The notes beneath the pieces are model-generated. The model was not told where the DNA came from. It saw only the letters and a program-made list of their open reading frames with translations, and made no database searches. From Hyphomicrobiales bacterium (lineage in GTDB: Bacteria > Pseudomonadota > Alphaproteobacteria > Rhizobiales > Beijerinckiaceae), in the NCBI GenBank assembly GCA_019237205.1, contig JAFAHO010000146.1:1-47937 (forward strand): DNA of 47,937 nucleotides, written 5' to 3'. Shown here one piece after another: positions 37,488 through 40,244 of this stretch (position 1 is the stretch's first letter; every line of letters begins with the position of its first letter). The position numbers and the translations under genes were made by a program.

Positions 37488-37988
37488 TCAATCCAACTCC
37501 CTGACGTAGAGACGCGCGACGCGAAGAGCGACATCGCGCGGCGCGCGGTTGTCCGTGCCGACGACGGGAACGAGGGTGATCGAGATGGTTTGGCCGAAGT
37601 CGGAATAGCCGATCATCGGCATTTCGAATGCAATTCCCGTTCGACGCACTTCGCCCCTGACAGGAAGCAGCTGAATGAAGCCCGCGCAGCGCGGATCCGT
37701 CGTAGGCGTAAGGTTGTCCGCGTCGGGTTTGTCGACGAACACATTGATCCGCACAGGCTGGGCCGCCGCGCCTTCGATCCCTTCGATAGCGAGAACCATC
37801 GGCAAGGGCTTGCCGGCGTTGAGCGCCGATGCGAGGTCGGGCTCAGGCGTCAGCTTCACGTCGAGCGGGGCGGTCCCGAGCTTGAGATTGGTCGCGATAT
37901 CGGTCAGCTCCCGTGCATTCGCAGGACTGGCCAAGCCGAAACCTGCAAGCAAGAGCGCCAGACCTATACCGCAGTAACCGAAAGCCAC
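37488..37988 (-). CDS. secreted stand-alone homologue of the tyrosinase C-terminal domain
   Basis: A 166-residue protein with a signal peptide (cleavage probably after SPANA, near residue 25). The mature part aligns with the C-terminal domain of the tyrosinase encoded just upstream: VLAIEGIE (65-72) matches VLYIRGIE (401-408) there, NVFVDKPDA (82-90) matches NVFLNLPDA (418-426) with the same 17-residue spacing, and SITLVP near residue 136 matches SVTLAP at 478. The start is GTG at 37988 with a weak ribosome-binding site, 15 bases after the tyrosinase stop. It may shield, chaperone or regulate the enzyme; this is inference. No tyrosinase copper motif is present in it. Confidence 0.8.
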   Translation of the reverse strand: MAFGYCGIGLALLLAGFGLASPANARELTDIATNLKLGTAPLDVKLTPEPDLASALNAGKPLPMVLAIEGIEGAAAQPVRINVFVDKPDADNLTPTTDPRCAGFIQLLPVRGEVRRTGIAFEMPMIGYSDFGQTISITLVPVVGTDNRAPRDVALRVARLYVRELD

Positions 37989-38003
37989 GTAATCAGTCCG
38001 CCG

Positions 38004-39524
38004 TCAAAATCGCTCGAGCGAAATCTGCCGGAACGTCGCCTGCGAGGCCCTCGGCGCGATCCCCCCTGCCGCCGTCGGCGCCAACGTGACCGAGAGATTT
38101 TCGACGCCCTTGAGCTTGCTCAGCAGGTCGGTCACATCGAAAGCCGCATTCGTGGTCACGGGGGTACGCGCAATCGGGGATTTCGTTTTGGCCAGGACGG
38201 TAACGGCGCCGACGAAATTCGGCGACTCGGTGCTCGTCGCGGCCGTCGCGTCGGGCAGATTTAGAAATACGTTGAAGATGGCCTGGCCGTCGTTCGGCGT
38301 CTCGATACCGCGAATGTAGAGCACGTATTGCGCGGGCGAAGTGGGCCCAAGCTGCGCGAGCGCGTGCATTTCTTCCTGCGGAATGGCGATCTCACGCGTT
38401 ACCGGCGCGACGCCGAGCGCGATCGGAGCGGCCGTCGCGTTGGTCATCGAGAAGGAAGCCGCCGCCACGAGACTTTCGGCCGCTGCGGCTACGGTTGCGG
38501 GCCGGCTGCGCGGTCTGAACGTCCAAATCGGCTTCGCGCTGGGCTTGGCGTATTCCGAGCGGAGTGATTTGACGGTATCGAGCACGTCCGCGATCTTGAT
38601 CTCTGTCCAGACGGCGTTTTCGTCATAGAACTGCCAGGGATGCTGCGTCCACGTCGCGGAGGTGAAGTTCTTGTGCTGGGCAGGCGCGAGGTCCAGCCAC
38701 ACGCCCCACAGCCTGTCGATGTTGCCATGATGGGCGAAGAATAAGGGATCCTGCGCCGCCGTCGCCAATACGCCCATGTCGTTGTTGCCGTTCTGCATGG
38801 TGGTGTCGCCGGTCCAGATGTGCACCGGCCCGTGAGGGGCGTTCTCCATGGCGCCCGCATCGCCGGCCTGCGAACCCAGGAACAGGTTGTTGTTGGGCGC
38901 ATTCATCGTCGTATTCAGGATCGCGGCCGAGACCGCCTGATCGCTGATCGCGTCGCTCGCCTTGGCGGAGCGCAGCATGTCGAACAGCGGGTTCGAAGGA
39001 TCGCTCGGATCGCCGTAGATACTCGGGAATTTCTGCCTGCCCTCGCTGTCCCAATCCCAATACGGAATCGCCAGCGTATCGTCGTTGATGAGCTTGCAGA
39101 GGATCCGTTCGTGAAAATGCAGGTACGCGCGATGCCACGGGAAGAACAGCCAACTCCCATGAATCTCCTCGCCCGCCTGGTTGTCGTTCCCGCCGCCGCA
39201 GTACCAACAATGGACATAGCCACCGCGCAACCACCCCCGGGGATCGTCGGGCGTGTCGTGCGTGAGCTTTCGCAGAGCGGCGTAAGCCTCCTTGAGACGA
39301 TCGACCTCTGTCTTGCTCAGTTCGAACGCGCTCTTTCGCATGCGAACGGGGAGATTTGGATCCGGTTTGTAGGCAACGGGGTTCTTGCCAGCCACCCCGG
39401 GCGGCGCGCAATTGTCTGGGTTGTCCTGCGCGAACGCGGCGCGCGGGCGAAGGCTGAAGCCGCTCAGTGCTGCCGCGCCGAGGCCCGCGCAAACGTCACG
39501 GCGATTTGGACCACGAGCTTTCAT
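38004..39524 (-). CDS. tyrosinase / polyphenol oxidase with Tat signal
   Basis: A 506-residue type 3 copper oxidase that would oxidise phenols to quinones. CuA ligands are H105 (GGYVHCWYC), H122 and H131 (EIHGSWLFFPWHRAYLHFHER); C109 sits where a Cys-His thioether occurs in catechol oxidases. CuB ligands are H231 and H235 (HGPVHIWTG) and a His of DPLFFAHHGNIDRLW. The N-terminus has a twin-arginine motif (PNRRDVCAG) and ends near AAFAQ, so it is probably exported folded and copper-loaded. The C-terminal ~140 residues (about 365-506) form a beta domain like the shielding domain of plant enzymes. GGGGAG precedes the 39524 ATG. Its natural phenol is unknown. Confidence 0.9.
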   Translation of the reverse strand: MKARGPNRRDVCAGLGAAALSGFSLRPRAAFAQDNPDNCAPPGVAGKNPVAYKPDPNLPVRMRKSAFELSKTEVDRLKEAYAALRKLTHDTPDDPRGWLRGGYVHCWYCGGGNDNQAGEEIHGSWLFFPWHRAYLHFHERILCKLINDDTLAIPYWDWDSEGRQKFPSIYGDPSDPSNPLFDMLRSAKASDAISDQAVSAAILNTTMNAPNNNLFLGSQAGDAGAMENAPHGPVHIWTGDTTMQNGNNDMGVLATAAQDPLFFAHHGNIDRLWGVWLDLAPAQHKNFTSATWTQHPWQFYDENAVWTEIKIADVLDTVKSLRSEYAKPSAKPIWTFRPRSRPATVAAAAESLVAAASFSMTNATAAPIALGVAPVTREIAIPQEEMHALAQLGPTSPAQYVLYIRGIETPNDGQAIFNVFLNLPDATAATSTESPNFVGAVTVLAKTKSPIARTPVTTNAAFDVTDLLSKLKGVENLSVTLAPTAAGGIAPRASQATFRQISLERF

Positions 39525-39587: not shown

Positions 39588-40070
39588 TCACGGCTGCCTG
39601 ACAGCAATGAACGACGCGACATAGCCGGCCTCGCCGCCGTCGTGAGCCTTCGCCCGCATGACCGTTCCGACGAGCGCGGGCGCCTGATCGACGCCGGCTG
39701 GCCACTGATACGCCAACCGGGCGTGGTAGTCATATTCCCATCCGGCCGTGCTCGTGGCAGGCCGCCCAGTGCCGACGATCTCGAGGACTGGCGCGCCGCC
39801 TTCTCCAGTCGGCTGGATGGTCTCCTGCAAATCAAGACCGCCGCCCGTCCACTCGATCGTCCCCTTGAGTGTGGAGCTCGTGGGAATCTCGAACGTAAAC
39901 ACGGCTTCGGCGAAAATCAGGGCCAACGCCCTGTTGGCGTCGTCGCCCACCAGAGCCGGGTCCTTGACATAGCTGCGATATGTCCACCGGCCAGCGAACG
40001 GCGACGTGCTCGATTTTGACGCTGCCAATGCCGCAGGCGCGTGCGACGCCTGCGCGTCGATGGGCATCAT
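39588..40070 (-). CDS. hypothetical protein of the tyrosinase operon
   Basis: A 160-residue protein not recognised as a named family. It lacks a clear signal peptide, and is beta-rich, with conserved-looking stretches FAGRWTYRSYV near the start, a middle GTIEWTGGGLDLQ, and VGTVMRAKAHDGGEAGYVASFIAV at the end, which resemble a lipocalin-like or calycin barrel in style. It starts 63 bases upstream of the tyrosinase ATG... in transcription order, and is probably the first main gene of that operon. Of the two adjacent ATG codons, 40070 overlaps the stop of a short leader frame (ATGA). A role in substrate or product binding is possible but unsupported. Confidence 0.6.
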   Translation of the reverse strand: MMPIDAQASHAPAALAASKSSTSPFAGRWTYRSYVKDPALVGDDANRALALIFAEAVFTFEIPTSSTLKGTIEWTGGGLDLQETIQPTGEGGAPVLEIVGTGRPATSTAGWEYDYHARLAYQWPAGVDQAPALVGTVMRAKAHDGGEAGYVASFIAVRQP

Positions 40071-40114
40071 TTTAGAAATTCCGCCGGCGCCAGGAACAGC
40101 AGCCCGCTGGTCAT
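40067..40114 (-). CDS. possible 15-residue leader peptide
   Basis: A 15-codon frame (MTSGLLFLAPAEFLK) with a very strong GGAGTGGAGG ribosome-binding region directly upstream. Its TGA stop overlaps the ATG of the 160-residue protein gene as ATGA, the arrangement used for translational coupling. The downstream gene itself has no good ribosome-binding site, which supports the idea that ribosomes reach it through this leader. Whether the peptide matters or only its translation does cannot be told. Confidence 0.4.
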   Translation of the reverse strand: MTSGLLFLAPAEFLK

Positions 40115-40244
40115 GGCCTCCACTCCTCAAGTCGAAACGCAAGAGCTATCCGTGGGAATTAATTTGGGGGAGGCCGTTCGAAGTCATCACCATCGCGCAA
40201 CGGAGCGCCTAGGCGCTTTCATCACACAAAACTCATGGGTCCGC

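Follow-up and report, generated by a model that had tools for sequence, protein, structure and literature searches.

Bacterial tyrosinases are used for the production of melanin and catechols, and an influence on carbon storage in peat has been proposed for them. In the polyphenol oxidases (PPOs) of plants and in bacterial enzymes such as 7xio and 8b74, a lid domain (PF12143, PPO1_KFDV) normally forms the C-terminal part of the enzyme chain. We describe here a tyrosinase gene and a small gene directly behind it on contig JAFAHO010000146.1 of a Hyphomicrobiales bacterium (assembly GCA_019237205.1), of which 47,937 nucleotides (nt) were analyzed and are referred to as the window. By its sequence family, which it shares with the corresponding protein of a Methylocapsa locus (L012), and by its predicted fold, the small protein is a stand-alone homologue of this lid, secreted and separately encoded next to an enzyme that retains a lid of its own. 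We put at roughly one half the probability that it is a dedicated accessory subunit of the tyrosinase, which carries a signal for twin-arginine translocation (Tat), and that it acts in the periplasm as a trans-acting cap or regulator, presumably by binding the enzyme.

Tyrosinases accompanied by a separate accessory protein have been described, and the preliminary description of the window was mistaken in holding that no such two-part system was known: Streptomyces MelC1/MelC2 and Marinomonas PpoB1/PpoB2 are both of this kind (PMC11608171, PMC2855505; these and the other articles cited were available in part). The caddie MelC1 is treated there as a lid with a polypeptide chain of its own (PMC11608171); it aids copper uptake and bears a Tat signal (PMC8375020, PMC11608171, PMC6312201). 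PpoB2 is the second protein of its tyrosinase operon and reportedly has a part in transferring copper to PpoB1 (PMC2855505).

Like the small protein, MelC1 is encoded separately beside a tyrosinase; it covers the active site and loads copper, and the two may be parallel if the role proposed below holds. However, the MelC1 gene lies upstream, its product supplies the Tat signal for a lid-less enzyme and it offers Tyr98 to the active site, whereas in the window the gene lies downstream, its product has a signal of the general secretory (Sec) type, and both a Tat signal and a lid are present on the enzyme itself. PpoB2 (PF09948) occupies the same slot directly behind a lid-bearing tyrosinase, but is a putative transmembrane protein and accompanies enzymes that lack a Tat motif in the loci analyzed here. 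The small protein matched neither PF06236 (MelC1) nor PF09948 in a Pfam scan at E 10, which returned PF12143 only. The lone lids of apple PPO (6elt, 6elv) are likewise lid domains in the form of free folded proteins, but have no gene of their own and result from recombinant expression or from the pro-enzyme cleaving itself. A tyrosinase with a separate accessory protein is a known kind of system; what appears to be new is a second lid, made separately, for an enzyme that has one already. No stand-alone lid-like partner of Tat-type tyrosinases was described in the titles and opening abstracts searched, with most subscription papers outside that search.

Sequence and predicted fold of the small protein

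The two genes and their parts are as follows.

38004..39524, minus strand: tyrosinase with its own lid, 506 aa (PF00264, PF12142 and PF12143 all over their cut-offs)
39426..39524, minus strand: putative Tat signal of the tyrosinase, RR in NRRDVCAGLG (by eye; missed by the Tat pattern)
38067..38336, minus strand: the tyrosinase's own lid domain (PF12143; 40.9 bits in the genome-wide search, 37.5 bits in the Pfam scan)
37488..37988, minus strand: small secreted lid-like protein, 166 aa, GTG start (open reading frame (ORF), PF12143 match, AlphaFold2 model, Foldseek)
37914..37988, minus strand: putative Sec-type signal peptide of the small protein, cleavage after PANA (hydrophobic stretch, read by eye)
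37548..37805, minus strand: PF12143 match in the small protein, residues 62-147 (Pfam profile)
37665..37667, minus strand: Leu108 of the small protein, aligned to the lid placeholder residue, Phe397 of HcTyr1 (alignment; placeholder from PMC11609597)

The small gene had been called the last of an operon. Its adjacency (it begins 15 nt past the tyrosinase stop) and its strand (minus for both genes) fit; the operon itself is read from this spacing and strand. The enzyme would be 511 aa long if an upstream ATG were used. The small protein is a separate ORF with its own N-terminal signal, not a domain C-terminal to the tyrosinase domain in one chain, and the export signals differ as first proposed, being Tat-type on the enzyme and Sec-type or lipoprotein-like on the small protein as read from the sequence.

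Homology of the mature small protein to the tyrosinase lid had been suggested from shared motifs, and these are present. VLAIEGIE is followed by NVFVDKPDA in the small protein and VLYIRGIE by NVFLNLPDA in the enzyme, both with a spacing of 17 residues, and SITLVP corresponds to SVTLAP. Profile searches and the predicted fold bear the homology out. The small protein is placed in PF12143 rather than in an unrelated family, with 28.5 bits (E 1.7e-6) against a gathering cut-off of 26 and 37.5 bits for the tyrosinase. In the whole source genome (5.46 Mb, 459 contigs) it and the window tyrosinase are the two PF12143 matches at E <=0.001. Aligned by hhalign, the window and L012 small proteins match the lids of the same two enzymes with a probability of 97.9 (E 6e-13), and the window tyrosinase as a query retrieves the L012 small protein (E 2.6e-12) among the ORFs of that locus. 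The remaining small proteins of the family described below gave 45 (E 2.2e-4) and 87 (E 3.9e-6) against two sets of lids; reversed and shuffled controls gave at most 0.66.

An AlphaFold2 model of the window small protein (predicted local distance difference test 79.6, predicted template modelling score 0.75) has, in prediction, the lid beta-sandwich. When the model was compared with the PDB by Foldseek, ranks 1-19 were all PPO or tyrosinase chains, with solved PPO lids first, and lids also top the ranking for two models built from alignments without any lid. Sequence comparison with the PDB is less telling: the profile of the small family finds the lid of 8b74 first, weakly (E 0.041), while a phmmer search with the window small protein gave two weak matches (E 0.23 and 0.25), both to one V-ATPase subunit. 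Only the window and L012 proteins match PF12143 among 33 small proteins scanned, and no credible NCBIfam match was found in the 32 scanned.

Distribution of the pair

We scanned a collection of species genomes with a three-sequence tyrosinase profile and kept the best 80 of 170 confirmed loci, about ten of which are near-identical Rhizobium loci. Loci L001-L006 repeat either the window or a second tyrosinase locus of the source genome (L007) and are excluded from the counts. Relatives of the small protein were sought among 8,272 ORFs (0.99 Mb) with an iterative profile of downstream proteins, started from eight seeds picked by eye; start codons were set by rule, not by prediction. The search yielded 52 members, seeds included. 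Each is on the strand of the tyrosinase and no more than 600 nt from the tyrosinase stop; the rest of these ORFs gave no member. The small lid-like gene lies directly downstream in 48 of these 80 loci, the remaining members being those of the window and L008-L010. From tyrosinase stop to small-gene start the median gap is 19 nt (range -20 to 238). The window protein fits this family by position: it is small, has an export-type N-terminus and lies directly 3' of a lid-bearing Tat-type tyrosinase.

The members come from, among others, Rhizobium, Bradyrhizobium, Nitrobacter, Methylobacterium, Caulobacter, Roseibium, Nitrosomonas, Acidovorax, Pseudomonas japonica and Lysobacter. Removal of copies left 42 distinct proteins, 33 of which form alignment A3 and 32 alignment A4 (L008, L009, L010, L017, L038, L049, L070, L082 and L089 are outside A3). 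On plasmid p42d of R. etli CFN42 the gene adjoining the tyrosinase gene is RHE_RS32525, annotated 'hypothetical protein'. The Rhizobium small protein occurs in 37 plasmid records; the window and Nitrosomonas proteins matched no plasmid, and among 11 candidate stretches in viral contigs none was confirmed as a relative.

The association also appears when the tyrosinase is not the query. The small-family profile matched 3 of 397 genomes of the window's order, each time directly behind a tyrosinase, in a set of which 14 genomes have a tyrosinase at all. Among 385 genomes of the class, a set overlapping the first, there were two matches. One lies behind a tyrosinase and is the same protein as that of L058 (G410); the other (G414, E 6.7e-4) we judge to be chance, as it has three internal stops and crosses other ORFs, with no tyrosinase in 3.2 kb. 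PF12143 at E 0.001 was found in 4 of the 397 genomes of the order, two of them over the cut-off, and in each of the four genomes a small gene follows the tyrosinase. In a sample of the phylum it was found in 3 of 398 genomes.

Three loci bear on the edges of the family. L054 may have a divergent member in its downstream ORF, which reached 48.6 by hhalign with a score of 28.5, where 20 shuffles gave 14.8 at most; it is not counted among the 52. The downstream ORF of L044 was unconvincing (hhalign 3.75; score 18.8 against 13.1) and also stays outside, and in L053 the contig stops 10 nt past the tyrosinase ORF, so that the slot is unreadable. In a separate case, the tyrosinase of a Paludibacterium metagenome-assembled genome (L081:1437-3107), an in-frame stop splits the catalytic part from the lid, leaving the lid as an ORF of its own; this may be a real split, decay or a sequencing error.

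Conservation and constraint

A hydrophobic N-terminal stretch is present in all 52 small proteins; 15 N-termini fit a loose lipobox pattern and two a Tat-like pattern. The most conserved motif is GRFGxFP, with its proline in 39 of 42 proteins. It aligns with the lid loop bearing the placeholder residue, which in HcTyr1 (8b74) is Phe397, reported to sit over the active site (PMC11609597); residue 397 of that sequence was confirmed to be F. Of 40 members of the general small family, 23 carry F at the equivalent position, six H and four Q. In the enzymes' own lids the placeholder is Phe in 22 of 22 enzymes of PpoB2-type loci, and Leu in 21 and Phe in 20 of 41 from loci with the small gene, a difference between lid types that may relate to latency.

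The small protein is under constraint. The ratio of non-synonymous to synonymous substitution rates (dN/dS) is 0.13-0.49 in 10 of 11 pairs of small genes, with several dS values near or past saturation, and could not be computed for one.

The PpoB2 slot and the enzyme tree

PpoB2-like downstream genes were called by iterative profile, and the four products run against Pfam all match PF09948 'Copper chaperone'. Of 86 loci, 52 have the small gene only, 23 a PpoB2-like gene only, none both and 11 neither. This shared slot, together with the service of both caddie MelC1 and PpoB2 in copper transfer as those reports describe it, would suit a copper-loading factor that puts copper into the apo-enzyme in the periplasm, as PpoB2 would do for enzymes without an export signal. 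We consider such a role unlikely. In the small family neither His nor Cys nor Met is conserved in any column (at best 6, 17 and 8 of 42, respectively), and on this ground the idea of a direct copper carrier was set aside or toned down; moreover, R. etli MelA, whose gene adjoins one for such a small protein, is reported to be active in copper-supplemented E. coli, apparently without the small protein (see below).

Nor does the exclusivity consist of many swaps. We built a tree of catalytic domains (73 rows of the 86 loci, midpoint root), with identical cores merged and L009, L031, L047, L062 and L085 left out, as they gave no CuA match by pattern. One branch (Shimodaira-Hasegawa approximate likelihood ratio test (SH-aLRT) 89) has all 22 PpoB2-type rows, L007 and L011 on one side and 42 small-type rows with seven others on the other. 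Many independent exchanges of PpoB2 and small gene were considered and rejected: three labels need seven changes on the tree, the PpoB2 label alone two. Exclusivity mainly follows one deep split of the enzyme tree, and it is therefore not a set of independent replacements.

The two types of locus also differ in export signals. Searched by pattern, 47 of 52 small-type tyrosinases and none of 23 PpoB2-type enzymes have a Tat-like motif; eight PpoB2-type N-termini inspected begin near the catalytic domain, without a signal. Of the five small-type enzymes missed, three can be read by eye, with RR in the window enzyme and a KR variant in L035 and L086; in L009 and L031 the N-terminal part is lost behind an in-frame stop. 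In these last two loci, both from Rhizobium, the stop breaks the tyrosinase while the small downstream gene is intact.

In the tree the window enzyme is nearest L012 and L013. Its best full-length PDB match is the plant PPO 6els (221.9 bits, residues 36-483); that of the L060 tyrosinase is 7xio, from Ralstonia (571 bits).

One or two origins

A tree built from small proteins and lids together sets the small proteins of the window and L012 next to the lids of their own enzymes (SH-aLRT 89) and away from the rest of the small family. By hhalign these two small proteins reach 97-98 against lids and 51 (E 1.5e-4) against the wider family, and the family profile A4, built without the window pair, misses the window's small gene in its own genome at E 0.001. 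These results would agree with the window copy being a recent, lineage-specific duplicate of a lid that has no settled function and sits in the slot by chance. However, the gene in L012 keeps its frame, signal and position at about 40% identity to that of the window (dN/dS 0.42). A tree with all small proteins as one clade had a log-likelihood 5.3 higher than the free tree and was not rejected by the approximately unbiased (AU) test (p 0.672; nine rows with long or doubtful branches were removed beforehand). We regard a chance duplicate as highly improbable.

Two origins as an established fact were likewise toned down, since the AU test allows a single clade. It is a tentative and, in our view, doubtful proposal that stand-alone lids arose at least twice, in the ancestor of the Tat-exported proteobacterial tyrosinases and among PPOs of plant type in Methylocapsa-type bacteria, and that they act in trans as a general layer of control, replacing PpoB2 for exported enzymes.

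Proposed role

As an accessory subunit, the small protein would act as follows. The tyrosinase would cross the membrane folded, via Tat, and the small protein via Sec, some members perhaps as lipoproteins, so that the two would meet in the periplasm. There the small protein could dock by its lid-type surface on the mouth of the active site or on the enzyme's own lid. As a cap in trans it might stabilize the enzyme, keep it latent, or gate the access of copper and substrate, and would then resemble caddie MelC1 on the lid-less Streptomyces tyrosinase.

Several observations weigh against this reading. Binding of the small protein to the tyrosinase is an inference, and a second lid has no obvious seat on an enzyme that is already lidded. 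The link between the wider family and lids has weak points: against the window and L012 lids alone, hhalign with the remaining small proteins gave 4.2; Foldseek E values reach about 1e-3 at best, and unrelated beta-sandwich folds tie in VIA; and at the placeholder position 10 of 40 general members carry H or Q, the window protein L and the L012 protein A. The enzymes also occur alone. L011 is a lid-bearing Tat-type tyrosinase without a small neighbour, one PF12143 match in the phylum sample (G531) is a lid-bearing tyrosinase without the small gene, and a Tat-like motif is present in 10 of the 11 loci with neither partner. A Tat enzyme can thus be encoded without the small protein, as these loci and L011 show. 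With plasmids reported to carry melA, R. etli MelA gives rise to melanin in E. coli (PMC3842659).

The variant expressed there was D535G, which was reported inactive without copper and with which the onset of melanin was earlier and the rate unchanged (PMC3842659). In the p42d sequence of MelA, Asp535 (the D of TDPHYVG) lies on the strand of the lid ahead of the placeholder, which hints that this lid region matters. RsTyr, whose relation to the Nitrosomonas enzyme extends over the full length, has been expressed and purified with the lid still in place (PMC13416272). Taken together, the activity of MelA in E. coli and the purification of RsTyr suggest that the partner is seemingly not needed for an active enzyme in the laboratory. 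Because MelA is apparently active without the small protein and the family has no conserved metal ligand, we favor a cap or regulator over an obligatory copper carrier.

Other modes of association deserve mention. The small protein could be a structural partner or tether, either pairing with the lid that the enzyme carries or holding the enzyme to the membrane or surface, and leaving the active site untouched. The loose lipobox in 15 of the 52 N-termini would suit an anchor, and homologous beta-sandwich domains could pair; however, most members, including that of the window, have no lipobox by this pattern, and we think a tether about as unlikely as a copper loader. It is quite improbable that the beta-sandwich is a binding module for polysaccharide or phenolic substrate with no direct contact with the enzyme.

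Other features of the locus and source genome

One further gene lies 5' of the tyrosinase and is possibly the first of the cluster.

39588..40142, minus strand: conserved protein of no assigned family (no Pfam or NCBIfam match at E 10)

Its homologues occur at varying distance in eight other of the 86 tyrosinase loci, five of small type (L016, L018, L033, L036, L040) and three of PpoB2 type (L068, L078, L090).

The source genome has a second tyrosinase (L007:8270-9820, contig C253) with a hydrophobic N-terminus, no Tat motif, and a lid-like C-terminus without a PF12143 match. Neither a small partner nor PpoB2 was found in the available flank, of which 0.97 kb is left downstream. The ORF preceding it (L007:7509-8144) we take to resemble an Ivy-type lysozyme inhibitor.

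Implications

Similar pairs in many bacteria point to an undescribed accessory protein of exported tyrosinases. If a dedicated partner is indeed annotated as a hypothetical protein, enzymes including R. etli MelA may have been characterized without their natural subunit. A division would be predicted in which PpoB2 serves enzymes without an export signal and the lid-like protein serves exported ones. The pair would also be a naturally occurring means of probing the function of the lid, since lid and enzyme can be combined freely.
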